Assembly (NCBI GenBank): GCA_028870115.1
Contig: JAGWQH010000055.1
Coordinates: forward strand, 1-64,000
Reading direction: 5' to 3'
DNA from: Candidatus Methylomirabilota bacterium
GTDB taxonomy: Bacteria > Methylomirabilota > Methylomirabilia > Methylomirabilales > Methylomirabilaceae
DNA: 64,000 bases
The notes beneath the pieces are model-generated. The model was not told the origin of the DNA, did not search any database, and saw only the letters and a list, made by a program, of their open reading frames with translations. The position numbers and the translations under genes are program-made. Numbering within the stretch: position 1 is the stretch's first letter; every line of letters begins with the position of its first letter. Shown here in pieces: positions 6,743 through 42,835 of the stretch.

Positions 6743-7687
6743 ATGCAGGGAGTTCGCTTCACACTGCGGAATCATACATTGAGCGGTACGATCATCGGAA
6801 ATATTGTGGAAAAGACTCAGGGTAGGGCCAGCGGGATCCAGGCTCCTGATTACGGCGCCGAAAAAGGAACGCTGACCCTAGTCATCCGCCCTTCCAGGGG
6901 GTGGAGTGCGCTCAATCTGGCCGACCTGTGGCACTACCGCGAACTGATCTACTTCCTCACGTGGCGCGACATCAAGGTGCGGTACAAGCAGACCGTGCTG
7001 GGCGCGGCCTGGGCGATCATCCAGCCCTTCTTTACCATGGTGGTGTTCAGCATCTTCTTCGGCCGGCTGGCCCGGATCCCGTCCGATGGGCTCCCCTACC
7101 CAATCTTTGCATACTGCGCGTTGCTCCCCTGGCAGCTCTTTGCTCATGCGCTGACCGAGTCGAGCAACAGCCTAGTCGCGAATGAGCGACTGATCACGAA
7201 GGTCTATTTTCCCAGGCTGGCAATCCCGATTTCGGCAGTACTCGCCGGGCTGCTGGACTTTCTGATTGCTTTTGTGGTGCTGATTGGGATGATGATGTAC
7301 TACCACGTAAAGCCCACCCTCGCCGTATGGACCGTGCCCCTGTTTGTCGTGCTTGCAGTGGGAACTGCCTTGGGCGTTGGCATGTGGCTGTCGGCGCTGA
7401 ACGTCCAGTACCGTGATGTGCGATACACCATCCCGTTCCTGACACAGATCTGGCTGTTTGCCACGCCGGTGGCTTACTCGAGCACGCTGGTCCCAGAGTC
7501 ATGGCGGGCGCTGTACGGGCTGAACCCCATGGCGGGTGTCGTCGAGGGCTTCCGCTGGGCGCTGTTGGGAAAAGCAGAAGGGCCTGGAGCACTCTTGGCC
7601 GTCTCGGTCACCATTGTCATCCTGATCCTGGTTGGCGGCCTGTACTACTTCCGGCGTATGGAGAAGACCTTTGCCGACGTGGTGTAA
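6743..7687 (+). CDS. wzm: Polysaccharide ABC transporter permease (Wzm type)
   Basis: ABC-2 family permease that forms the membrane channel for export of a lipid-linked glycan across the inner membrane. RELIYFLTWRDIKVRYKQT just before the first membrane helix is the typical amphipathic entry segment. About six hydrophobic segments follow, with PFFTMVVFSIFFGRLARIPS and the C-terminal NPMAGVVEGFRWALLG characteristic of Wzm/TagG proteins. The open frame gives 314 residues from ATG 6743; GTG 6806 (293 residues) is an equally plausible start and closer to family length. The partner ATPase gene follows after about 200 bases that contain a gene remnant. Confidence 0.9.
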   Translation: MQGVRFTLRNHTLSGTIIGNIVEKTQGRASGIQAPDYGAEKGTLTLVIRPSRGWSALNLADLWHYRELIYFLTWRDIKVRYKQTVLGAAWAIIQPFFTMVVFSIFFGRLARIPSDGLPYPIFAYCALLPWQLFAHALTESSNSLVANERLITKVYFPRLAIPISAVLAGLLDFLIAFVVLIGMMMYYHVKPTLAVWTVPLFVVLAVGTALGVGMWLSALNVQYRDVRYTIPFLTQIWLFATPVAYSSTLVPESWRALYGLNPMAGVVEGFRWALLGKAEGPGALLAVSVTIVILILVGGLYYFRRMEKTFADVV

Positions 7688-7775
7688 CTATAGATCTCTG
7701 AGTGCGAATTGCGAATTTCGAGGTGCGGATCGCAAGACGAGGTTGGAGCTATTTGAAGAGGTCGGGCATGGAAAT

Positions 7776-7892
7776 ATGACAGAGCGGCGGGTTTTGCTCA
7801 AAGAATCTGACGAACTCCTGGCCATCTTCACGGCTATTGGCAAGAGTACGAAGGCTAAGAATCCGAAATCCGGAATTGGAAATCCGAAATGA
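7776..7892 (+). pseudogene. C-terminal remnant of a four-helix bundle (23S rRNA intervening-sequence type) protein
   Basis: A 38-codon frame containing RRVLLKESDELLAIFTAIGK, which resembles the last helix of the four-helix bundle family (ESxxLLxIFxxxIKTAK). The rest of the family, usually about 120 residues, is absent. The TGA stop overlaps the ATG of the downstream ATPase gene (ATGA). The assignment rests on a short stretch and is moderate at best. Confidence 0.4.
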
Positions 7893-9193
7893 CCGACATC
7901 GCCATTCGCGCCGAAAACCTGGGCAAGTTGTACCGCATCGGCCATCGGGAGCGCTACAGGGCCTTACGTGATACACTGACCGATGCCATGTATGCGCCGT
8001 TGCGCCGAATCCGTTCCGCCTTTCAGCGTCCCAGCGTCCCAGCGTCCGAGCATGCCAATGAAGACAATACCTTCTGGGCCTTGAAAGACGTATCCTTTGA
8101 AATCATGTGTGGCGAGGTAGTCGGAATCATCGGCCGCAACGGAGCTGGCAAGAGCACGCTGCTCAAGATCCTCTCCCGCATCACCGAGCCCACGGAAGGC
8201 ACCGTAGAACTCCACGGCCGCGTGGGGTCGCTTTTAGAGGTGGGCACCGGCTTTCATCCTGAATTGACCGGGCGGGAGAATATCTACCTCAATGGCGCCA
8301 TCCTGGGGATGAAACGGATAGAGCTTGACCGCAAGTTCGATGAGATTGTTGCTTTCGCCGAAATCGAGAAATTTCTCGACACGCCGGTGAAACACTACAG
8401 CAGCGGCATGTATGTGCGCCTGGCCTTCGCTGTGGCCGCCCACCTGGAACCTGAAATCCTGCTGGTAGACGAGGTGCTCGCGGTGGGTGATGCCGCATTC
8501 CAAAAGAAATGTTTGGGCAAGATGAGCGACGTTTCCAAGGCTGGCCGTACAGTGCTATTTGTGAGCCATAATATGCAGGCGGTAAACAGCCTTTGCTCTC
8601 GAGGGATTTTCCTCAGCACTGGTAAGATTGCAGGAAGCGGAGACGTGGCTTCAGTAGTCAAGGTGTATCTAGCCTCTGCGACGGGACACGTTCCGGAGCG
8701 GCTCGAGCAAGTTTGGGACGACATGGATACAGCACCCGGAAACGATAAAATTCGTCTGCATCGGATAGCAGTCGTTCCGGAAGGTAGCGCACACTTGATC
8801 GACCTAACCACCTCTTTCCGAGTCGAGATTGAATACTGGAATTTGACGCCCTTGACCCGGTTACATATAGATCTCTGCTTATATACCTTGGAAGACAGTC
8901 CCGTCTTCGAAACGCTCAGTTGGAAGGAGCCCCATTGGCACGACAAGCCGTTTCCGAGTGGGCTTTTTCGAAGCACCTGTCATATTCCCGGAGATCTGCT
9001 AAATGAAGGAACGTATCGTATCAGAGTCCTGTTCGTAGACGACTGTTCACGAAAGCTTTACGACAACCATGAGGCAACAACATTTGCTGTTCACGAAATG
9101 GCTGGCAGGCAAGACCTATGGTACGGCAAATTCATTGGCCCCGTGCGCCCGCAGCTCCAGTGGGAAACCGAGCTAGTAAGCTCTCACATGTAG
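7889..9193 (+). CDS. wzt: Polysaccharide ABC transporter ATPase with C-terminal glycan-binding domain (Wzt type)
   Basis: ATP-hydrolysing subunit that powers glycan export with Wzm. Walker A GRNGAGKST lies near residue 80, the signature is YSSGMYVRLAFA and Walker B is ILLVDEVLAVGD, followed by the switch histidine in LFVSHNM. The N-terminus carries the 60-70 residue lead typical of Wzt/TagH. Residues from about 260 to 434 form an extra domain (start near VWDDMDTAPGN) that fits the Wzt C-terminal beta-sandwich, which in known systems reads the terminal modification of the O-polysaccharide. Full length, 434 residues. Methyltransferase genes follow directly, consistent with a capped chain being the export signal. 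Confidence 0.92.
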   Translation: MTDIAIRAENLGKLYRIGHRERYRALRDTLTDAMYAPLRRIRSAFQRPSVPASEHANEDNTFWALKDVSFEIMCGEVVGIIGRNGAGKSTLLKILSRITEPTEGTVELHGRVGSLLEVGTGFHPELTGRENIYLNGAILGMKRIELDRKFDEIVAFAEIEKFLDTPVKHYSSGMYVRLAFAVAAHLEPEILLVDEVLAVGDAAFQKKCLGKMSDVSKAGRTVLFVSHNMQAVNSLCSRGIFLSTGKIAGSGDVASVVKVYLASATGHVPERLEQVWDDMDTAPGNDKIRLHRIAVVPEGSAHLIDLTTSFRVEIEYWNLTPLTRLHIDLCLYTLEDSPVFETLSWKEPHWHDKPFPSGLFRSTCHIPGDLLNEGTYRIRVLFVDDCSRKLYDNHEATTFAVHEMAGRQDLWYGKFIGPVRPQLQWETELVSSHM

Positions 9194-30929: not shown

Positions 30930-32207
30930 TCAGTGGATCTTCTTGAGGGACACATGGTCGATCCAGGCTGTACCCGCGATAAGATTATCGATTTTCTGGC
31001 TCGGTTCTCGACGGATCCTGACTACGATCGCTTGCGATCGAGAGGACGTCAGAAACGAAGTCTTCAGCTCCGACCAGTCGTGGTCCCCGACGAGTTCCTC
31101 TGTTGCGCCATAGAGCCTTCCGTCGAGCAGGTCAAAGGCTTCGATGCGAAGGCCACTCCCGGTCGTGATGCCGTGAGTCTTGATGTAACCGTCCAGGAGA
31201 TATCTGGTGTCCGGCATGACCCGAACAACCTGTCGAATGCCGGAAAGATCGACATTATGAGTCCCATCGAATGAGATTTTCAGGGACCGGTTCCCCTCTT
31301 TCGAATGATACGCATCGATCCCGACATCCGCACCGGCGACGGAATACAGTCTCCAGTCGAATCCCTTCCCCAGCGTCTCATCGCGTTCAAATCCACCATT
31401 CCAGATAAGATTGTCCGAGGCGCTGCGATCACCGATCCCCTTCCCCTTCAAAGCCATTGACCAGGCAACCCCTGCCTCCGGTATCTCCTTCTGGGCGAGC
31501 ATAAAGTCGGCATAGGAAAGCGCAAGGGCAGGATCAATGGCCGGTCCTGCAATCTGGACCAGCCTTTTCCAGACAGCTCGGACGTCGCTGGCTTCCTGAT
31601 GCCTGATGAGATACCCCAGATAGTCCGACAGCACCTCACGATCCGGCGGCAGAATTGATTCAATGAGATCTGCCGGTGTGGTCAGCGTGCGAACCAACGC
31701 GAAGTAGCTCCATCGTTTGCTCCGATCCGTTCTCATGAGATAGGTGAGATTCGCCACCGCCTCGTCAAAGCTTCCAAGCTGGATCTGAAATAGGGCGGCC
31801 TCCCAGCGCAGTCTCGCCTCGCTGGGATTGAAACGCAACGCCAGCCTGAGGGCTGACTTCGCCTCCTGAGTCTGCCCCAGCCACCAGTAGGTCCTCGCCA
31901 CATCGAACCACGTCCGACTTGAGAGGGGATTCTCTCGGAGGACCATTCGATACTGGTTCAGCGCCTCCTGATAATCCTGGAAAGCCACGCTGTAATGGCG
32001 GATCCTTCCCACGTACTGATGCTGATACTGGGGGTCTTCAGGATGAGACCGCCAAGCGCGCAGGAGGTCGGGATCATTGGGAAGGGGGGGGATCGCGAAG
32101 CTGGCCGCCCAAGGGTGGATGATCACCCAGGCGGTCAGGATGGCGAGGCAGGAGAGCACGAGGAGTGAGGCGGCCTTGCTTGACGAAGTCCTGAGCTCGA
32201 AGACCAT
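30930..32207 (-). CDS. Membrane-anchored TPR protein with C-terminal beta-sandwich domain
   Basis: A 425-residue protein. A single hydrophobic helix near residues 12-33 anchors it in the inner membrane. Residues about 60-240 are tetratricopeptide-like (for example ALNQYRMVLRENPLSSRTWFDVARTYWWLGQTQEAKSAL). From about 262 (NLIWNGGFERDETLGKGFDWRL) to the end the pattern of strands resembles carbohydrate-binding jelly-roll modules. Such proteins accompany polymerase and export genes of exopolysaccharide clusters, and a glycan-binding scaffold role in the periplasm is inferred. It is separated from the Wzc-like gene by a dispersed repeat. Confidence 0.75.
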   Translation of the reverse strand: MVFELRTSSSKAASLLVLSCLAILTAWVIIHPWAASFAIPPLPNDPDLLRAWRSHPEDPQYQHQYVGRIRHYSVAFQDYQEALNQYRMVLRENPLSSRTWFDVARTYWWLGQTQEAKSALRLALRFNPSEARLRWEAALFQIQLGSFDEAVANLTYLMRTDRSKRWSYFALVRTLTTPADLIESILPPDREVLSDYLGYLIRHQEASDVRAVWKRLVQIAGPAIDPALALSYADFMLAQKEIPEAGVAWSMALKGKGIGDRSASDNLIWNGGFERDETLGKGFDWRLYSVAGADVGIDAYHSKEGNRSLKISFDGTHNVDLSGIRQVVRVMPDTRYLLDGYIKTHGITTGSGLRIEAFDLLDGRLYGATEELVGDHDWSELKTSFLTSSRSQAIVVRIRREPSQKIDNLIAGTAWIDHVSLKKIH

Positions 32208-32424: not shown

Positions 32425-34782
32425 TCACGAACTTTCATGCTCATGGGAGTGGGAGGCTCCTGCTGGGGTATGGCTTTGATTATGATGCTCCCTCGCAACG
32501 ATACCGTGTCGTTCGGATTTCCGATGATAGTAGTGTTGATAGTCCTGATAATACGAATACCCATGGCTATGCAGATCCATATTGTTCAGGACGACGCCCA
32601 AGATTTTCGCGTTGACTGCGTTGAGTGTTTTTACCGCTCTTTGAGCGGCATCTCGAACCGTTTTACCTGCACGGATAACAAACAAGGTGCCCTCGGCGAA
32701 TGTGGACAGCAGAACGCTATCGGTAAACCCCAACACCGGCGGCGCGTCGATAATCACATGCTTGAACTTCTGACAGAGCAGATCCATGGCGTCCTTCATC
32801 CGCTCGGAGCCGAGCAACTCCGCCGGATTCAATGGGGATTGTCCCGCCGGCAGCAGATAGAGGTTGGGGATCGTCGTTTGTTTGATCGTGGCGCCGAGCT
32901 CTGCATCCCCCACAAGAAAGTTCGACAGCCCGGGCGTCCGATCCTCCCCCAGGATCCGGTGACAATCGGGATAGCGCATATCCCCATCGATGAGCAGAAT
33001 ATCACCGCCGAGTTGCGACAGCGCGATAGCAAGATTGATCGATACTCCTGTTTTACCGTCGCCCGGTTCCGCGCTCGTCACGAGGAGCAACTTGGGAGGG
33101 TTCTCCGGGAGAGAGAAGAGGAGCGAGGTCCGAATATTCCGGATAGCCTCACTCACCAACGAGGACTGATCCTGATACATGGCCAGTTCAAACGACTTCG
33201 TTTCCTGGCCGTTGCTGGTTCCTTTCAGTCGCCTTCTTCGTTCGGCGGAGGCTAATGCCGGCACGGCCCCCAGAATCGGCAATGCGAACGTCGATTCGAC
33301 CTCTTCGATCTTATTGACAGTATTGTCGAGGTAGTCGGCGAAGAACGCTAAGCCGATCCCCAGACTCAAACCAAGGACGATCCCGAGCGTCAGGTTGAGC
33401 AGCTTCTTAGGGCGATCGGGCCAGAGCGGAACTTTTGCCCGATCGGTGACCTGGATATTCGTGGAATCGAGTCCCACAGAGACGGCCGTCTCCTTCATGC
33501 GCTGCAAGAGACCGGCGTACAGCTCACGATTAATATCCACTTCTCGCTTCAGGATGTTGTACTGGATGGCATCTTCATTGGTCTTGAGGGTCACCTGTTT
33601 CTGCTGGTCCACCGAGCTTTGTAGCAGATGTTCCGATTTCAGAGCTGCCTCATAACTCGACCGCAGCCCGCCAATAATCTTTTGAACCTCACCATCGAGC
33701 CGTGCCTTCACCTCATCGATATTGCTCTTCAGCGCCACCATCCTCGGGTAGTCCGGCAGAAACGTCTCGGAGAGCTTTCTGTATTCGGCTTGAAGGCGGA
33801 AATACTCTGTCTTCAAGCTAGTAATCAGCGGATTTTCCAGCACCGATGGAAGCGACTGGGACTCTTGTCCTTGAGCCTGTCGATACAGCGCCTCTTTCGC
33901 CAATCGATCGCTGCGCGCTTTCATCAGAGCATCGGTGAGCAGTGAAAGTTGCTTGGTTGTCTGCTCCTGTTTTTCATCGAGCACGAGGTATTGCTTCTGC
34001 TTGGCAAACTTTTGGAGCAGTTCATCAGAGCTTTCAAGCTTCACCTTCACCTCTTGAATCTGCTTCGCCAGGAAGTCGCCGGCATATTTCGTCGCGCCCA
34101 CTTTCTGCTCGATGCTCTGTTCGATAAAGTTTTCTGCCATCGCGTTAGCCACCTGGGCAGAGAGCTCCGGCGAGGTACTAAGGAAAGCGATCTTTACCAG
34201 GCGGGTATTCTTGACGGGTTCAATCTCGAGCTTACTCAAAAAACGGTTCACTATAGGCGACTCAATCGTTGACACCTCGCCGGGAACCCGTTGCGTAGAG
34301 GATTGTTGCAGCAGAGAGGCAACGATGCCGGCTAACCCGGCCCAGGCATTGGAAACCGGACCACCTGTATCCGTTCCCGAGAATTCCGGGTTGGTTTCAA
34401 GTTTGAGTAGCTTCACGACCCGCTCCGCCAGGGAATAGCTCGTCAACAGCTTGTATTGCGTTTGATAATAGTCGTCAGTTTCTTTGTTGACCGACGGCGA
34501 GACCTCTTCAAATTTCAGGATCCTGGGTTCTGTTTTGTCAATCTGGATGGTCGCGGCGGCCTTATACACCGGCTGCTGAATGAAGGTTGCCGTCGCCACG
34601 GTAATTACCGTGACAAGAAAACAGGTGAGGACGATCCAGCGGTGCTTGAGTAGCACATGCCAGTAGTCTCTGAGATGCGGATCTTTCTTTTGCTCGGGAA
34701 ACGCCTGGACAGGCCATAGCTGGGGTTTCGCCGGAACTCCGCTCTCGTCCCTCACTTTTACGAGCGCATTATCGGGGTCCAT
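32425..34782 (-). CDS. wzc: Polysaccharide co-polymerase fused to BY-kinase (Wzc-like)
   Basis: A 785-residue inner-membrane protein that sets chain length and links Wzy polymerisation to Wza export. Wzz-type domain: first membrane helix about residues 50-70 (RWIVLTCFLVTVITVATATF), PVYKAAATIQI, then a long coiled-coil stretch 200-420, and a second helix near 470-495 (LLNLTLGIVLGLSLGIGLAF). Kinase domain: Walker A SAEPGDGKTG near 585, Walker A' ILLIDGDMRYP, Walker B VIIDAPPVLG. The end is Tyr- and His-rich (YSYYQDYQHYYH), the usual autophosphorylation cluster. No separate phosphatase gene is seen nearby. Confidence 0.92.
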   Translation of the reverse strand: MDPDNALVKVRDESGVPAKPQLWPVQAFPEQKKDPHLRDYWHVLLKHRWIVLTCFLVTVITVATATFIQQPVYKAAATIQIDKTEPRILKFEEVSPSVNKETDDYYQTQYKLLTSYSLAERVVKLLKLETNPEFSGTDTGGPVSNAWAGLAGIVASLLQQSSTQRVPGEVSTIESPIVNRFLSKLEIEPVKNTRLVKIAFLSTSPELSAQVANAMAENFIEQSIEQKVGATKYAGDFLAKQIQEVKVKLESSDELLQKFAKQKQYLVLDEKQEQTTKQLSLLTDALMKARSDRLAKEALYRQAQGQESQSLPSVLENPLITSLKTEYFRLQAEYRKLSETFLPDYPRMVALKSNIDEVKARLDGEVQKIIGGLRSSYEAALKSEHLLQSSVDQQKQVTLKTNEDAIQYNILKREVDINRELYAGLLQRMKETAVSVGLDSTNIQVTDRAKVPLWPDRPKKLLNLTLGIVLGLSLGIGLAFFADYLDNTVNKIEEVESTFALPILGAVPALASAERRRRLKGTSNGQETKSFELAMYQDQSSLVSEAIRNIRTSLLFSLPENPPKLLLVTSAEPGDGKTGVSINLAIALSQLGGDILLIDGDMRYPDCHRILGEDRTPGLSNFLVGDAELGATIKQTTIPNLYLLPAGQSPLNPAELLGSERMKDAMDLLCQKFKHVIIDAPPVLGFTDSVLLSTFAEGTLFVIRAGKTVRDAAQRAVKTLNAVNAKILGVVLNNMDLHSHGYSYYQDYQHYYHRKSERHGIVAREHHNQSHTPAGASHSHEHESS

Positions 34783-34947: not shown

Positions 34948-36063
34948 TCAGTAAAATGATGCCCCAACGCCGAAACGGATGAACTCAAGGAACCCGAACC
35001 AGGCCGACTTGAACCCATGGCTGTTCACCAAAATTACGTCGTTTTTCATTACAAGAGGGCCTTTCTGACCCTGCTCTATCTCGTTGAGACTGACCTCAAT
35101 GATCTGTTTCTTTTGTCCTTTAATCTCGCGAAATATCTTGACGCCCTCAAAATCTGCGATACGCGTAACACCGCCGGCTTCGATGATCGCTTGATCGACG
35201 GTGACCTCTCTCCCTTTCAAGAGATACGAACCAGGCTTCTGGACCGCTCCCCCTACAAAGAAGCTGCCCGCCTTAGGAACATGGACGACATCTCCGGACT
35301 GCAGGGGTGCGTTCAACTCCTCTTTTCCACCGACCAGCATCTCCTCCAGATTGATTTCGAGAACCGCCTCCTGGGTAGATTTCCCATTAGACCCAGTCTG
35401 GGGTTGCGAACCAGGTGGGTCCGGCAGACCCGGCGACTTCGCCGCCTTGCGGATCAGATAGACAACCTGGTCGGATTGCTCAGTGAGTCCTTCGGCCATC
35501 GCCAGCATATCCACGACCGAGCGCGGGCCGCTGACCTCAAAGACACCGGGCTTTTTCACGGCGCCGAAGACACTGATCCGATGGCTGTGATGTTCGAGCA
35601 CAAAGACGCTGACTTGAGGATCCCGGACATACCTGGAGCCAAGCGCTGTCTTTATAACTTCTTCGAGCTCCATCGCACTTTTTCCACCAGCAGCCACTGT
35701 GCCCGCAAGCGGGAGCGTCATGAGTCCTTCCGCGCCGATTCTGGCTTTGATCTTGCTGAGTTCCGGGATATCGAAGACGGAAATCTCCAGAAGATCGCCT
35801 GTCCCCAACTTGTAATCGCCAGCCAGGCCATCTGGATTTGCCATGGCAAGGATCCTGCTGTTCAGTGCTAGATTGTCATGGTTCTCATCATGGGCCAAAT
35901 TGGCGATCAGAGCTTCGGTCTTTGAAATCCCGGAACTTGTCGCGCAACCCGACGCAAGGAGGGCTGCTATCGCGCCCACAACGAGCATCGTACTCCGGAC
36001 GCACGCAGTCCCGGTTTTGGGGGTTGATGGGGGGATGTTGCTATTTGAACCTCTGTACGGCAT
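34948..36063 (-). CDS. wza: Outer-membrane polysaccharide export lipoprotein (Wza-like)
   Basis: A 371-residue lipoprotein. The signal sequence ends in a lipobox (LLASGC, Cys about residue 40); the first 24 residues before MLVVGAIAALL may not be translated. The polysaccharide-export domain begins YKLGTGDLLEISVFDIPELSK at about 80, and SLBB domains follow (VFGAVKKPGVFEVSGPRSVVDML and FFVGGAVQKPGSYLLKGREVTVDQAI). In Wza the octamer forms the outer-membrane pore. AGGAGG lies upstream of the annotated ATG. Gene order FecR protein, Wza, Wzc on one strand fits a single transcript. Confidence 0.9.
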   Translation of the reverse strand: MPYRGSNSNIPPSTPKTGTACVRSTMLVVGAIAALLASGCATSSGISKTEALIANLAHDENHDNLALNSRILAMANPDGLAGDYKLGTGDLLEISVFDIPELSKIKARIGAEGLMTLPLAGTVAAGGKSAMELEEVIKTALGSRYVRDPQVSVFVLEHHSHRISVFGAVKKPGVFEVSGPRSVVDMLAMAEGLTEQSDQVVYLIRKAAKSPGLPDPPGSQPQTGSNGKSTQEAVLEINLEEMLVGGKEELNAPLQSGDVVHVPKAGSFFVGGAVQKPGSYLLKGREVTVDQAIIEAGGVTRIADFEGVKIFREIKGQKKQIIEVSLNEIEQGQKGPLVMKNDVILVNSHGFKSAWFGFLEFIRFGVGASFY

Positions 36064-36203: not shown

Positions 36204-37523
36204 CTAGGGGGCGACGTTGCTGGCGACAGGAGTGGATCCACCGCCACTGTGCAACACGCCGAGCGGCACTCCAATAGCGGCACCGCCTGCCGCACCCCCA
36301 GCTACCAAGGCCGCAATACCAGGCCCCGCGGGGACCAGAAATGCCGCAGCTAAGCCGCATTCCTCAACGACGACCCATCGTTTTTCAGGTTGTTCTTCCC
36401 AGGCCCAGGTAAAGTCTCGGTACAGCTCCTGATCCGGTCGCGGCGGTTCGGTAGGCGGAGATCCGAGTTGCACCTCCTGCCATCCGCCCCACACATCCGG
36501 TGGGTTCGAGGGATGCCACGCCCATACATAATCCGCCTTGGGAGCTTGGGATGGCGGATTGACTGGCGGCGGGAGCTTGGCGGTTTCCTCATTGGAAGCC
36601 CGACGGAACGGCGCAAACTGGCCGCACTCTCGCTTGGCGATGACCCACTGATCTTTCCACGCCCACGCAAAGCCTTCGCGCACCTCCTGCGCAGGCGGAG
36701 GCGGGGTCACCGGCGGGATGCCGAGCTTCATCTCCTGCCACCCACCCTGAACGTCTTGGGGGTGAGAGGGGTGCCATGTCCAAACGTTCTCAGGCTTTGG
36801 CGCCTGGCTGGGTGGATCGGTCGGCGGAGGAGCTTGCTGTCCACCAGGCTGAGCGGCCGCGTACTGCTTGAACGGGACCGCTCCCGACGATTGCGCAGCC
36901 ACGGTCCGTACCTGCCCTTCTGTCAGTCGTTCTGTGACAGAGCCGTTCTGTGAGACAAGGAACGCTTCACCGGACAGCAGGCGGACTCGAGGAATCCCAC
37001 CCTTCTGAGCCGTAATCACACCCAACGTGTCCCGTTGAGTCTGTGAACTCGTGCTGATACGGGTCGCCGCTGCGTGGCCGGTACCACCCGTAGTAATTGC
37101 GGCGGTCTGGATGAATCCACCCGGCATCACAAGTCGGGTAGACGATGAGGGTCGCAATCTAAACAGCACATTACCCTCTGCGATGCGTACGATCATGGAC
37201 GATCCCATCATAGTGACCGCCAGTTCTGTCGTAGGACTGGCTTCCAGTCGGCTTCCGTCGAACAGGCCCAAAGCAACGGTTCCTGTTCTAGCCCTGACCA
37301 ACGTCTTGTCGAATACGGGAAGCGTTCCCGAGCCCAACGCGATCCAGCCCTTGCCGTCGAAGGAGATCTGCGCGGGCGACGTCCCTCGGATTTCACCAAG
37401 CGGCTGATTGAACCGAGGTGTTGCCGCGATCGCTCCCGATATAAATACTGACAAGACGGCCGACGCGAGTATCGCAAACGCAAAACTCGCGCAACTTCTG
37501 CGGACTGTTCCAGAGGTCAACAT
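36204..37523 (-). CDS. Secreted FecR-domain protein with two Trp/Pro-rich tandem repeats
   Basis: A 439-residue protein from ATG 37523, preceded by AGAGGAGG. Signal peptide about residues 1-35 (SFAFAILASAVLSVFISGAIAA). FecR-type beta-rich domain about 60-200 (GSRLEASPTTELAV, FRLRPSSSTRLVMPGGFIQT, VRLLSGEAFLVS). Two tandem units of about 70 residues then follow at roughly 232-301 and 318-390, each with NPPSQAPK-like lead, W-x-WHPS-x-P-x-DV-x-GGWQE and F-x-WAW. The last 50 residues are Gly/Ala-rich and partly hydrophobic. It sits between the Wza gene and the response regulators, so a role in surface assembly or sensing of the polymer is inferred. Confidence 0.75.
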   Translation of the reverse strand: MLTSGTVRRSCASFAFAILASAVLSVFISGAIAATPRFNQPLGEIRGTSPAQISFDGKGWIALGSGTLPVFDKTLVRARTGTVALGLFDGSRLEASPTTELAVTMMGSSMIVRIAEGNVLFRLRPSSSTRLVMPGGFIQTAAITTGGTGHAAATRISTSSQTQRDTLGVITAQKGGIPRVRLLSGEAFLVSQNGSVTERLTEGQVRTVAAQSSGAVPFKQYAAAQPGGQQAPPPTDPPSQAPKPENVWTWHPSHPQDVQGGWQEMKLGIPPVTPPPPAQEVREGFAWAWKDQWVIAKRECGQFAPFRRASNEETAKLPPPVNPPSQAPKADYVWAWHPSNPPDVWGGWQEVQLGSPPTEPPRPDQELYRDFTWAWEEQPEKRWVVVEECGLAAAFLVPAGPGIAALVAGGAAGGAAIGVPLGVLHSGGGSTPVASNVAP

Positions 37524-37584: not shown

Positions 37585-38055
37585 TTATGCGGGCGCCGGC
37601 TCCCCTTCGGTTGCCTGAAGGATCGAACCGGCAAGACCAATGAGGTGATCCAGCGCTTGCGCCAACACTCGCCGCCTGGCCCACACCTCCCCACGCTCCA
37701 CAGCTCGGATCACCTTTTCCAGGCTGGTTCTCTCGCCTTTAACGATGTATCCTCTGGCCCCGAGTTCAAGTGTCTGCTGGATGATCTCTTCTTCGTCATG
37801 GCCGGAGCGAATAATTACTCTTGTGTTCGGGTTGAACCATCGAACCAGCCTGAGGACCTCGAAGCCATCGATCCCCGGCAGATCCAGATCAAGAATCAGT
37901 ATGTCCGGGTCCAGCCGCGCGACGTCAGCAATCGCCTCCAGCCCGTCACACGCCTCTGCAGCAACTTGAAAGTCTGGCACGCATGCGAGCTGCTCCCGAG
38001 CCAGCTCGCGAAGCCCAGGATCATCCTCAGCAATAACGATTCGAATAGATGACAT
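37585..38055 (-). CDS. Single-domain response regulator (receiver without output domain)
   Basis: A 156-residue protein from ATG 38055 (MSSIRIVIAEDDPGLRELA). The receiver domain is complete: acidic pair EDD, phospho-acceptor in LILDLDLPGIDGFEVL, Ser in IIRSGHDEEE, and Lys in YIVKGE. It ends shortly after a linker-like GEVWARRRVLAQALDHLIG that resembles the linker of the full NarL-type regulator next door (GEIWADRKVLTHVLENL), but the DNA-binding helix-turn-helix is missing. It may be a truncated paralogue or a protein-interaction regulator. It lies between the FecR gene and the full regulator. Confidence 0.85.
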   Translation of the reverse strand: MSSIRIVIAEDDPGLRELAREQLACVPDFQVAAEACDGLEAIADVARLDPDILILDLDLPGIDGFEVLRLVRWFNPNTRVIIRSGHDEEEIIQQTLELGARGYIVKGERTSLEKVIRAVERGEVWARRRVLAQALDHLIGLAGSILQATEGEPAPA

Positions 38056-38243
38056 CGTCACACTTCCTTCTGATGATCCGTTGGATGACCCATGGACTCG
38101 CCAAGACATCCGGTCCAGCTACGCAATCCACACCTATCCTCCGTGTGTGCAACATGTCACATCTGTATGCGCAAGGTTCACGCCGTCTCCGACAGCGACC
38201 TTACAATCGCATGCGCAACACCCTCGCCATCCTTATATATGAA

Positions 38244-38417: not shown

Positions 38418-39071
38418 TTAGCTGTTACGTTCTGCGATCCGATGGAGGGTGAGCTCCAAGCGCCGACTAATCTTTAACTTACTGAAAACATTGCTTAAAT
38501 GGCTCTTTACCGTCTTATCGCTGATCCCAAGTCGAACGGCGATCTCTTTGTTCGTCATGCCCTGGATGACCCACCTGACGATCTCCTGCTCCCGGTCGGT
38601 CAGAGTCTCTTGCGTCTCCAGGAGGGGCGCATTCACCCCGTGCACTTTCCGGTACAAGTTCTCCAGCACATGTGTCAGGACTTTGCGATCCGCCCAGATC
38701 TCCCCGTTATAGGTGGCCCGGATGGCCCTGGCAACATCTTTGTGGCTGAGTGTTTTTTCCAAATATCCTTTCGCGCCAAGTTGTAAGGCTTGGATCATGA
38801 ACTCATCGTCGGAAAATCCGGAGAGGATTAACACACGTGTCCGGGGAGATTTCTTGTGGATCTGCGGGAGCGCCTCAATACCTCCAAGCCCAGGCATCTG
38901 GATGTCCAGTAGCAGGATATCCGGTTGAAGCGTTTCAGCCATGCTGACGGCCTGGAGGCCATCAGCGGCCTCTCCGACCACGGAAATGGTCGACTCTTGC
39001 TCCAACAGCATCCGCAGTCCTTCTCGAAAAAGGGCATGATCGTCAGCGATGAGTACCGTAATCCGATTCAT
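38418..39071 (-). CDS. NarL/FixJ-type response regulator
   Basis: A 217-residue two-domain regulator. Receiver: VLIADDHALFREGLRMLLEQ, phospho-acceptor in LLLDIQMPGLGGIE, Ser in LILSGFSDDEF, Lys in GYLEKTLSHKD. DNA-binding domain from about residue 150: LTDREQEIVRWVIQGMTNKEIAVRLGISDKTVKSHLSNVFSKL, a complete LuxR-type helix-turn-helix. No histidine kinase is encoded nearby. A consensus promoter and paired dyad sites lie upstream, so it may regulate itself and the export genes. Confidence 0.92.
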   Translation of the reverse strand: MNRITVLIADDHALFREGLRMLLEQESTISVVGEAADGLQAVSMAETLQPDILLLDIQMPGLGGIEALPQIHKKSPRTRVLILSGFSDDEFMIQALQLGAKGYLEKTLSHKDVARAIRATYNGEIWADRKVLTHVLENLYRKVHGVNAPLLETQETLTDREQEIVRWVIQGMTNKEIAVRLGISDKTVKSHLSNVFSKLKISRRLELTLHRIAERNS

Positions 39072-39325: not shown

Positions 39326-40051
39326 CTACTGAGCAGGAGGCTGTGAGCGCGTGCGGCTACGCTCCCACATGAACAGGCCAAAGGCGATTATGCCGAGAAG
39401 CACCAACGAGGCATAGCCGAAGTCGCGGGAGGCAAAGAGGATCAGATCATCGAACCGGCCGATGAGGAGCGACATTCTGGCCATGACCGTATAGCCAAAG
39501 CCGGCGCCGAAGTTAATCATGAGGAAATAGATGCCGATTCGTGCTGCGACTTGGATCGGTCCCTTGTGCTCGATGGAGAAGAAGAAATAGACCAGCACCG
39601 TGACGACGCCGACCAGGATCAGCAGGGTATTGATCTGCGCCATCCCGAAGGAGGACTGCCCGGCATTCAGGATCGGCCTTAATGTCCCCTGCACTTGCTG
39701 AAGGATGTTGGAGGAGATGATGCGGGGAATGGCGACGCCGGAGCCGAAACCCACGATCACGGCAAACGAGATCCGGCTCAGCCAGCTCACTTTCGGGATG
39801 AAGCGGGTCAGGACCAGGAGACCCAGGATAGCGGCGATCAGGAACCACCATTTCCCTTCCTGCATCACCGGAGCGTAGAGGCTTTTGACCATCACATCGT
39901 AATAGATCCGGACGATGGTGTACCCCATCGAGATTCCAACGTAGAGATGCTCACCAAATCGGAAGAACGGGTTATCCTTATACAGGAAGCTGAACATGCA
40001 CAGAGTGAGACCGGCGGCCACCCAGGCGCCGAGCAGGACAGAAGGCGTCAT
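39326..40051 (-). CDS. Conserved membrane protein of the MutL-like/DUF6754 operon (seventh gene)
   Basis: A 241-residue protein with about seven hydrophobic helices and no signal peptide (MTPSVLLGAWVAAGLTLCMFS). NPFFRFGEHLYVGISMGYTI and GFGYTVMARMSLLIGRFDDL look like conserved loops. I do not recognise a named family. ATG 40051 overlaps the TGA of the gene upstream by one base, so it is the last member of a coupled operon. Confidence 0.75.
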   Translation of the reverse strand: MTPSVLLGAWVAAGLTLCMFSFLYKDNPFFRFGEHLYVGISMGYTIVRIYYDVMVKSLYAPVMQEGKWWFLIAAILGLLVLTRFIPKVSWLSRISFAVIVGFGSGVAIPRIISSNILQQVQGTLRPILNAGQSSFGMAQINTLLILVGVVTVLVYFFFSIEHKGPIQVAARIGIYFLMINFGAGFGYTVMARMSLLIGRFDDLILFASRDFGYASLVLLGIIAFGLFMWERSRTRSQPPAQ

Positions 40052-40941
40052 CAGCGTCTCGCCTCTCGCGGCGAGCCGGGCACACTAGACCCACTATGGG
40101 TACCCGCTGAGGGCCGGATCCCCAATCGGGGCGTCAGGAAGTACAGGAGATTGCAGAGCAGAATCAGGCCGATAATGATAAAATGCGTGGCTGATTGCGC
40201 GTCCATCCCGGCCACCGCCTTCCCCTTCATCCCGATCAACGTTTCGTACTCGGCTGCCCCGCGCAACCCGCCGATCAGGCCGTTGATCTGCCCGGTATCG
40301 AGGAATGGGTAGAGGCCTGGCGCGATCACGGCCGTCACGCCGCCCCCCAACTCGAAACCGTACTTCTCCTTACCATACAGGTACCAGCTTTCGACGCCGG
40401 GGGTCCCCGCGGCCAGACTGACCACGTAGTTGACCTGCCTCAGCGATTTGACCCCTTGCATGACCGGCAGGTCCGCAGTCCGCTCGCCATAGTGGTCGGT
40501 CGGAAAGGCGGCAGCCAGGTCCTGGCCCATGTTGATGATGACGTTGGTCCCGCCTGGCGAGTATCCAAGGAAGGTGTAGTCCACGCCTCGTCGTTTCCCG
40601 TGCTCGCTTGCGATCCCGCTCACTACCTTTTCGGCCATTCCCGTTCCTGTCACCCAAAGCGTCATCCCGACGACCCGCAGATTCCGTTTGAAGGCGTGAT
40701 TAAGCAACGCGACCGCCATCGGATAGAGTTCCGGTTTGGAGGCCGGATCGAAGTCCAGCGACAACAAAAATACCGATCCCGGCGGAAGCGACTCGATGTA
40801 GTCGTAGACTCGCCTGACCTCTGGCGAGATCCGGATCGGAAAGCCGATCGGACGCAAGAGCGGGATCAGCGTGGCAAGCGCGACCAGGACGAAGATCACC
40901 CGACGATCCAGCCGCAGCAGCTTGCGGGCCAGCTCCCTCAA
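40051..40941 (-). CDS. Conserved membrane-anchored protein of the MutL-like/DUF6754 operon (sixth gene)
   Basis: A 296-residue protein with one N-terminal helix (residues 14-32, VIFVLVALATLIPLL) and a C-terminal helix near 255-275 (FIIIGLILLCNLLYFL). The domain between, about 220 residues, has a mixed alpha/beta pattern: GSVFLLSLDFDPASKPELYPM, NLRVVGMTLWVTGTG, VDYTFLGYSPGGTNVIINMGQ. No catalytic motif or named family is recognised. It overlaps its upstream neighbour by 4 bases. Confidence 0.75.
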   Translation of the reverse strand: MRELARKLLRLDRRVIFVLVALATLIPLLRPIGFPIRISPEVRRVYDYIESLPPGSVFLLSLDFDPASKPELYPMAVALLNHAFKRNLRVVGMTLWVTGTGMAEKVVSGIASEHGKRRGVDYTFLGYSPGGTNVIINMGQDLAAAFPTDHYGERTADLPVMQGVKSLRQVNYVVSLAAGTPGVESWYLYGKEKYGFELGGGVTAVIAPGLYPFLDTGQINGLIGGLRGAAEYETLIGMKGKAVAGMDAQSATHFIIIGLILLCNLLYFLTPRLGIRPSAGTHSGSSVPGSPREARR

Positions 40942-41576
40942 TCTCGGCCCCCCAGGTACGATCGCTCGATCCCGAAAATAATCTTGATCGAGGTGGCGAT
41001 TCCACCAAGGCTGATTCCGATGATGATCCCCCGCCTGGCTGCCGTGTTGAGGACGTTCAGAAGCCAGCCGGCTATAGGCCCTGCAGCAGGAACCAGATAC
41101 TCACCCAACGGCACGCGACCGAACATCATCAGGACCGCCGCCACCAGCAATACGGCTGCCTCTTTACTCCTGGCCCGAAAGGCGCGGAATGCAGCGGAGG
41201 CTACGAAGAATCCGAGCATGGAAAACATCGTTCCCTGAAGCGCAAGCAGGGCATACGTGTAGATCCAACCGAAACCTGTCCCCTCCTCCTGTCCTCCTGA
41301 CCATAATCCTACCGCGACCGTGGCCAGCATCGAGAGATAGACCACCAGACTGTACCCCCAGCCGGCGACCCGTGTCCGGATCTTCGCATAATGGACGTGG
41401 CACAGGCTGGCGATCCCCAGGATCATCGCAAATCCGAGGATGATCCGCAGCCAGACCGAGACCTCGGTGAGCGCCGCTTCCGAGACCGGGTGGGGAATGT
41501 AATACTGGAGGGCAGCCGCCACACCAAACACGAAGGTCAGTATCAGCGGGAACGTCCGCCGCAGAAATAGTGTCAT
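40938..41576 (-). CDS. Conserved membrane protein of the MutL-like/DUF6754 operon (fifth gene)
   Basis: A 212-residue protein with about six hydrophobic segments (for example FPLILTFVFGVAAAL, IILGFAMILGIASLCHVHYA, LVVYLSMLATVAVGLW). The small polar loop GGQEEGTGFGWIYTYALL lies in the middle. No family recognised. Overlaps both neighbours by 4 bases, so it is almost certainly translated together with them. Confidence 0.75.
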   Translation of the reverse strand: MTLFLRRTFPLILTFVFGVAAALQYYIPHPVSEAALTEVSVWLRIILGFAMILGIASLCHVHYAKIRTRVAGWGYSLVVYLSMLATVAVGLWSGGQEEGTGFGWIYTYALLALQGTMFSMLGFFVASAAFRAFRARSKEAAVLLVAAVLMMFGRVPLGEYLVPAAGPIAGWLLNVLNTAARRGIIIGISLGGIATSIKIIFGIERSYLGGRD

Positions 41577-42835
41577 TTGAAATCCCGGAACAGTTGCAGC
41601 AGCGGCACAAACGCCTCAGGCCCGACAAGTCCGCCGATGGTGGCAAGGACGGTCCCGATCACCATAGAGAGCAGCAGAAACGCTTTTCCCAGATCCTGCC
41701 CCCGCAAGGTCCCAACCAGTACCGGCTCGCGCGAGAGGTACGCGCTCGCGGCGTACAGCTCCTCGCCGATCAGTGTGTAATCGCAGGTCGTAATGAAGAA
41801 AGGCAGTTGCAGATCGGCGTCGGTCCCGGCGATCTGGATCGCCCCGGTCCCGGCGCCGGTCTCTGCCAGCAACAGCGCCTCAGCATAGTAAAAGCCCATG
41901 AAGAAATTAGCTGCCGGCCGCTCCCGGAGCATAATACCGTTCACCGCGGCGGTGTAGCTGAACTGATCGTTGGTGATGAAGAAGTTGGAGTCATCACGAT
42001 AGGCATCGGGTCGTCCAGCCTCCAGGTATGACTCCTTGACGATCTCCTGACAGATGGCCATGACGATCGGGTCCCGATGCGGCACCTGGAGCTGCGTATC
42101 GTACGCCGCCGTCTTCTTCGCAACCTGCCCAAGGATCACCGTCGCCGCAATAGTCGAAAGACTCGACATATCGTCGGAACCGGTAAGGTAGAGGATCGGC
42201 CGTCCCATCTCGGTCGCACGACCGATCGCCTCCTCCACCGCATCCAGACCCGGAATCCGGCGCAGGAAGATAGCGGGATGTCGCTTAGCCTGGGCAATCG
42301 CAAACAGGACAAGAGCGGAGAAGAGAACCATTAGCAGAAAGTTGTTCGCCTTTGCCAGGTTGAAAAAATTTGGCGCCGGGACGGCGGATTGCACCGGCCC
42401 TTCAATCGTCTGCATCCCGCCTGCCTGGCCGGCAGACAGGTCGGTCGCCGCCACCTTGAAGAAGTAAGTCCGGCCGTTCTCGAGGCGGAGATCTTGCGTC
42501 GATTTTACCTGGTAAAAGTGATACGCCTTGCTCCGATCCCAGCTCCACCAGGGGCGATCAACATCACTCTTGTAGTGGGTGTCGGCAGCAAACTCGGCGA
42601 GTCGCGTAAAGGGTCCTTGCGCCTGATCGGCTATGTAGATTTGATAGCGAACTGTCGGTCCATCGAACGGGGCTGCCCGCCACGACAGTCCGATGCTGCC
42701 CCCGCCATCGCCGGGCATATCGAAGGCCTCGAACTGCTCGGGAGGGGAAAGGGATAAGGCGAAAGTGGAAGGTGGAGGGAGGAGGGGAAACAGGACGAAA
42801 AGAACTGCGACGGCAAGAGCGCGCACGATGCTCAC
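41573..42835 (-). CDS. Fibronectin type III/DUF6754 membrane protein (fourth gene of the operon)
   Basis: A 420-residue protein. Residues 1-26 are a signal or anchor segment (ALAVAVLFVLFPLLPPPSTFA). An FnIII-like domain runs from about 32 to 145 (GSIGLSWRAAPFDGPTVRYQIYIA, GRTYFFKVAATD). A membrane helix lies near 163-182 (FLLMVLFSALVLFAIA). The cytosolic DUF6754 domain follows (GRPILYLTGSDDMSSLSTIAATVILG, DLQLPFFITTCDYTLIGEELYAASAYLS). A second helix lies near 388-405. Biochemical function is unknown. It overlaps both neighbours by 4 bases. Confidence 0.8.
   Translation of the reverse strand: MSIVRALAVAVLFVLFPLLPPPSTFALSLSPPEQFEAFDMPGDGGGSIGLSWRAAPFDGPTVRYQIYIADQAQGPFTRLAEFAADTHYKSDVDRPWWSWDRSKAYHFYQVKSTQDLRLENGRTYFFKVAATDLSAGQAGGMQTIEGPVQSAVPAPNFFNLAKANNFLLMVLFSALVLFAIAQAKRHPAIFLRRIPGLDAVEEAIGRATEMGRPILYLTGSDDMSSLSTIAATVILGQVAKKTAAYDTQLQVPHRDPIVMAICQEIVKESYLEAGRPDAYRDDSNFFITNDQFSYTAAVNGIMLRERPAANFFMGFYYAEALLLAETGAGTGAIQIAGTDADLQLPFFITTCDYTLIGEELYAASAYLSREPVLVGTLRGQDLGKAFLLLSMVIGTVLATIGGLVGPEAFVPLLQLFRDFK
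42419..42441. repeat. Short palindromic repeat inside the DUF6754 gene
   Basis: GCCTGCCTG-gccgg-CAGACAGGT, coding for AGQAGG in an FnIII-proximal loop. The same arms with a longer centre occur at 51840-51868 between genes. Confidence 0.55.

Follow-up and report, generated by a model that had tools for sequence, protein, structure and literature searches.

What could a FecR-like protein with two tandem units rich in tryptophan and proline do beside the genes of a Wza/Wzc polysaccharide exporter? This question arises from the gene at 36204..37523 of the window, by which we mean the whole stretch of 64,000 nucleotides analyzed here. An initial annotation assigned a FecR-domain protein to these coordinates and proposed that its repeats might bind the exported polymer. 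The coordinates are correct and the open reading frame lies on the minus strand, with an ATG at 37523, a stop codon at 36204-36206 and a length of 439 aa. Orthologues with 71-74% identity occur in four other genomes of the genus. The cassette type found in these five genomes is called type I in the following, and a second, paralogous one type II.

The protein begins with a hydrophobic N-terminus (residues 1-33, 37425..37523). Its 15-residue hydropathy maximum of 2.60 supports a signal-like character, and judged from its sequence the protein is probably exported. Among the five type I orthologues this leader is the fastest-evolving region (dN/dS 0.53). It is followed by the FecR-like domain (residues 34-222, 36858..37424), which is basic with a pI of about 11, by unit 1 (residues 232-308, 36600..36830) and unit 2 (residues 318-397, 36333..36572; acidic, pI 4.3), and, as read from hydropathy, by a Gly/Ala-rich hydrophobic C-terminal segment with a short Gly/Ser/Pro tail (residues 398-439, 36207..36332), all on the minus strand. 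The C-terminal segment has a 21-residue hydropathy maximum of 1.80 with 13 Gly+Ala; for its dN/dS, dS was computable for only five of the ten pairs. Among the 16 family members inspected for a hydrophobic tail, it is clearly absent from the shortened paralogue of genome G005 (L048). A scan for promoters and terminators gave nothing that clearly exceeded shuffles.

The assignment to FecR depends on the relatives. The whole window protein has no match in Pfam or NCBIfam, even at E 1, or in PHROG and PDB sequences, and it is the only one of 14 aligned family members that is not matched by PF04773 (FecR); the other 13 match this profile at E 0.1 or better (best 1.3e-6). The curated cut-off of 24 bits, checked singly for two members, is exceeded by L055 (27.9) and not reached by L047 (20.9), and a genome search at the stricter E 0.001 gave no PF04773 match in G009 or G014. 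We take residues 34-222 as FecR-like because the aligned relatives match PF04773 over the same region. The proposed FecR domain thus stands as homology to profile-matching proteins, and it does not stand as a profile match of the window protein itself over the curated cut-off. PF04773 is common in the phylum, with matches in 65 of 95 genomes. In common with FecR domain proteins, the window protein has a FecR-like domain and is probably exported; unlike them, it possesses the two units and a Gly-rich tail and is not matched by the profile.

The FecR-like gene is the first of a cassette on the same strand. It is followed by genes for a Wza-like OPX protein with a lipoprotein-like N-terminus as read from the termini (34948..36063; Poly_export, SLBB_2 and SLBB in Pfam), a Wzc-like co-polymerase/tyrosine autokinase (32425..34782; Pfam and NCBIfam), and a TPR protein with a CBM_4_9-like C-terminus (30930..32207; CBM_4_9 at E 0.0058, below the cut-off). 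In the TPR protein of a type II paralogue (L047:14301-15584) the CBM_4_9 match is over the cut-off (E 3.8e-8), and by their sequences both TPR proteins are themselves candidate polymer-binding factors. The cassette is conserved: the full gene order is present in 15 of 17 cassettes (type I 4/5, type II 6/7, more distant class members 5/5), where the TPR gene of G063 was detected by tblastn. In the remaining two, G012 (type I) and G001, the end of a contig truncates the cassette. The proposed location beside wza and wzc is accordingly confirmed in four of the five unit-bearing genomes, while the contig of the fifth (G012) stops inside wza.

A profile of the FecR-like domain found 19 genes in 16 of the 95 genomes. 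Linkage to wza, as expected of a Wza/Wzc accessory, was observed for 17 of the 19, each of which immediately precedes a Wza-type gene and shares its strand. Fourteen of the 19 had themselves served as rows of the profile and had been picked by similarity and not by neighborhood. In G075 the wza match is split over two adjoining frames. One exception is found on G092:C90, where the contig ends before wza is visible, and the other is the shortened type II gene of G005 (L048:9595-10410, C1:1329754; 271 aa), which has neither the hydrophobic tail nor wza, wzc or TPR genes alongside. It looks as if the remainder of this type II cassette was lost. The positions of PF04773 and wza were also compared by eye among the matches listed, and three of the loci were inspected. 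FecR and wza are separated in G028 by a barrel gene (BBP2_2) that adjoins the OPX gene and in G090 by a gap of about 0.9 kb, and the G067 locus has no FecR/wza pair. The Wza-like proteins of the FecR-like cassettes possess a C-terminal extension past the SLBB domains, in contrast to the OPX proteins of G028 and G090. The Wza-like protein of the window has matches in 139 plasmid records; for the FecR-like relative L055 no plasmid match was found.

These observations argue for an accessory role of the FecR-like protein in export. It is the best-supported part of our explanation, as the gene linkage recurs in paralogous cassettes, and we regard this step with good confidence as correct. The isolated gene of G005, which persists without wza, wzc and TPR, is an argument against it.

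The specific role of the protein has to be sought in its repeats. Unit 1 reads WTWHPSHPQDVQGGWQE...FAWAW and unit 2 reads WAWHPSNPPDVWGGWQE...FTWAW, and both carry the W-x-WHPS pattern that had been described for them. Their local alignment (residues 232-306 against 318-396, an offset of 86 residues) scores 260, compared to a mean of 39.9 (sd 7.75, maximum 80) in 2000 shuffles. The tandem Trp/Pro-rich units are therefore real, and only their length has to be corrected, from 70 residues to a conserved length of approximately 77-80. An internal half-repeat (the hairpin VWAWHP...GGWQE against FTWAW...WVV) was considered and dropped, as its profile-alignment score was equalled or exceeded in 16 of 300 shuffles. 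Each unit contains six or seven Trp, and the Pro content is 0.19-0.21. Exactly one Cys is present in each of ten units (C300 and C389 in the window protein), and in all five proteins any other Cys is confined to the N-terminal leader, so that a disulfide between the units may be possible.

The units had been described as not known from a named family, and no search gave a significant match. With the ten units at E 10, the only Pfam family found was PF03535 (Paxillin), for two of the ten (best 0.17); NCBIfam gave none, and the PDB only antibody light chains (E 0.36 and 1.2). Pfam profiles of CBM and cell-wall-binding repeat families gave no significant match either.

The units are under purifying selection. 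They are the most conserved part of the FecR-like protein in the five type I orthologues, with a mean dN/dS of 0.13 for unit 1 and 0.10 for unit 2, whereas the FecR-like domain has 0.245. When the ten units of the five genomes are aligned, they share 33 invariant columns. Within a unit type, similarity across species is 0.83 and 0.85; between the two types it is 0.60-0.61. As the two types differ and each is conserved, the duplication predates these species and the copies were not homogenized. This bears on the idea of a structural spacer or surface-exposed stalk, in which the units, as two rigid Pro/Trp modules, would bridge the FecR-like domain and the membrane-bound tail without any specific ligand. 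Their place between that domain and the hydrophobic tail fits this idea, and so does the observation that other family members have something different and shorter there. FecR-like proteins of type II and of more distant relatives consist of the FecR-like domain and mostly a hydrophobic tail, with no W units; by eye, some relatives (L054:1437-2525, L057:5590-6762, L060:1-1068) show at this position two short repeats that follow, exactly or closely, the form [VIL][FY]xxxGxSxGY, and others have a short linker only. The number of invariant columns and the low dN/dS exceed, however, what a spacer needs, and a spacer does not explain two units that differ from each other while each is kept across species. 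We consider a mere spacer quite unlikely.

A profile search with the unit over the 95 genomes of the phylum found it in five, all from one genus, which we take to be Methylomirabilis (5 of its 15 genomes). The units always number two and are always found in the FecR-like gene of a type I cassette. They occur in five of five type I and in none of eight type II FecR-like genes, and the paralogous FecR-Wza-Wzc-TPR cassettes without units include two in genomes that also hold the W-unit gene. A scan of genome contigs for the unit pattern gave 11 matches, one of them a relative (Candidatus Methylomirabilota bacterium isolate FeB_30). None of 28 pattern matches in viral contigs is a relative, and phage records had no unit match. 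Two partial matches in plasmid records (E 6 and 8) were taken as chance. The W units are thus most likely a module that is restricted to one genus and belongs to one of two cassette types. The initial annotation had named a failure to recur in other polysaccharide loci as one of two grounds against sugar binding, and this one applies, because the unit is confined to orthologous loci of one genus.

The trees show the same cassette types. The trees of the FecR-like domain (all 19 rows), Wza (17 rows; G012, type II G005, G075 and G092 left out) and Wzc (15 rows; in addition the partial G001 and G028, which is in pieces, left out) all recover three groups, namely type I, type II and the more distant relatives. 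The FecR tree supports type II only weakly (72/92), and the order of the three groups varies among the trees. Type I is separate in the FecR tree (100/99), although the units were omitted from it. Its stem measures 1.89 changes per column for the FecR-like domain compared to 0.58 for Wza and 0.68 for Wzc, a long branch that calls for caution.

This pattern is relevant for a further explanation, according to which the W units are a protein-protein module that ties the FecR-like protein to the type I Wza/Wzc or to a surface layer without touching sugar. The units track the cassette type, the long FecR-like stem is expected upon a change of partner or role, and the high Pro content fits protein-binding segments no less than glycan binding. 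On the other hand six or seven Trp per unit seem, in our judgement, many for a simple docking segment. We regard this module as a real possibility that nevertheless falls well short of an even chance.

For the protein as a whole we tentatively favor an exported accessory of a Wza/Wzc (Wzx/Wzy-type) exporter that is docked near Wza and contacts the polymer with its W units, although in all its parts this explanation has a somewhat less than even chance. The signal-like helix would lead the protein to the periplasm or the surface, where the FecR-like β-domain may dock to the export complex, with Wza as the most likely partner. The protein could be kept in or against a membrane by its Gly-rich C-terminal helix. 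The pair of Trp/Pro-rich units, whose single cysteines may pin them together through a disulfide, might then contact the polymer of their own locus as it exits Wza. Sugar binding by the units is plausible from their composition, context and constraint. Polymer contact is their most likely specific role, and binding of a protein partner is nearly as likely. It is an argument against polymer contact that the units match no carbohydrate-binding family or solved structure, and that with the TPR/CBM protein the cassette already contains a sugar-binding candidate. As paralogous cassettes do without the units, these are not required for export as such.

Structure prediction does not assist in this choice. 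AlphaFold2 gave a mean pLDDT of 51.5 for the unit (four sequences) and 35.2 for the whole protein (two sequences), so that no binding cleft can be demonstrated from the models. The sole element common to both runs is a low-confidence hairpin at unit residues 15-20 and 30-35. The models are too poor to use, and we draw no structural conclusion from them. Choline-binding and similar cell-wall repeats are likewise Trp-rich tandem modules, and the predicted unit shares with them at most this one β-hairpin. In contrast to such repeats the W units are longer and Pro-rich, have one Cys each and match no Pfam family significantly.

Partner genes of OPX proteins are known from Myxococcus, where β-barrel porins are paired with class 3 OPX proteins within a scheme of OPX classes (PMC9603273). 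The porin gene is likewise found in conserved synteny with the OPX gene; the window protein differs from these porins in that it has no barrel match, as judged by Pfam alone. The main text of PMC9603273 does not contain the term FecR, and that of PMC8671808, which deals with the surface layer of M. lanthanidiphila, contains neither FecR nor polysaccharide. Among the matches listed, in titles and the beginnings of abstracts with few subscription journals included, no such FecR-like subunit of Wza/Wzc export is described.

What would be new is a Trp/Pro-rich module of 77-80 residues, present twice on a scaffold of the FecR-like kind and pinned by a disulfide, in a Wza-linked accessory specific for one exopolysaccharide. 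In this full form we consider the proposal unlikely. Related cassettes have other modules or a linker at the same position, and the FecR-like protein would therefore be an exchangeable adaptor that reads the polymer. If this is true, some Wza/Wzc exporters of the phylum have an extra exported subunit whose middle module varies by locus, and there is possibly a recognition step between polymer and export channel. To our knowledge no genetics is available for these organisms, and the value of the finding lies in a testable protein rather than in an immediate phenotype.

A last hint arises from the genes upstream. Directly adjacent is a gene for a receiver-only response regulator (37585..38109, minus strand), with homologues at the same position in four of five type I loci including the window, G012 being the exception; by tblastn the identities are 55% in G005, 53% in G013 and 67% in G009, and in G013 and G009 the gene was detected by this search. 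A LuxR-type response regulator (38418..39071, minus strand) follows in five of five type I loci, again including the window. Neither regulator was found by tblastn at E 1e-4 at the 14 fetched loci that lack W units (L047-L060), although the upstream sequence is short in some of these. As they were found only at type I loci, the regulators track the cassette type that also carries the W units. Together with the FecR-like domain, this could suggest a FecR-type sensor that signals the state of export or of the envelope to these regulators. Such a protein should have a cytoplasmic anti-sigma segment before the helix and an adjacent gene for an ECF sigma factor. The hydrophobic leader starts, however, near residue 12-14 and leaves no cytoplasmic anti-sigma part; the adjacent upstream genes encode response regulators, no sigma factor is found among the neighbors scanned, which separates the protein from FecR regulators, and no sensor kinase was identified beside the regulators among the genes scanned. 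A sensor is improbable and the least favored of the explanations considered here, and an anti-sigma role in particular is given low weight.

Further upstream we note a DUF6754 protein (41573-42835) and a MutL-family protein (PF13941, 43985-45886); the two frames between these and the regulators (39326-40051 and 40051-40941) have no Pfam match. Like the CBM_4_9 domain of the L047 TPR protein, other genes of the region are in keeping with the favored explanation, as they encode a bacterial sugar transferase, a Wzy_C protein and several glycosyltransferases. Genes for an ABC-2 permease and an ABC ATPase (6743-9193 of the window) share this polysaccharide region with the Wza/Wzc cassette, and two export routes may therefore coexist.
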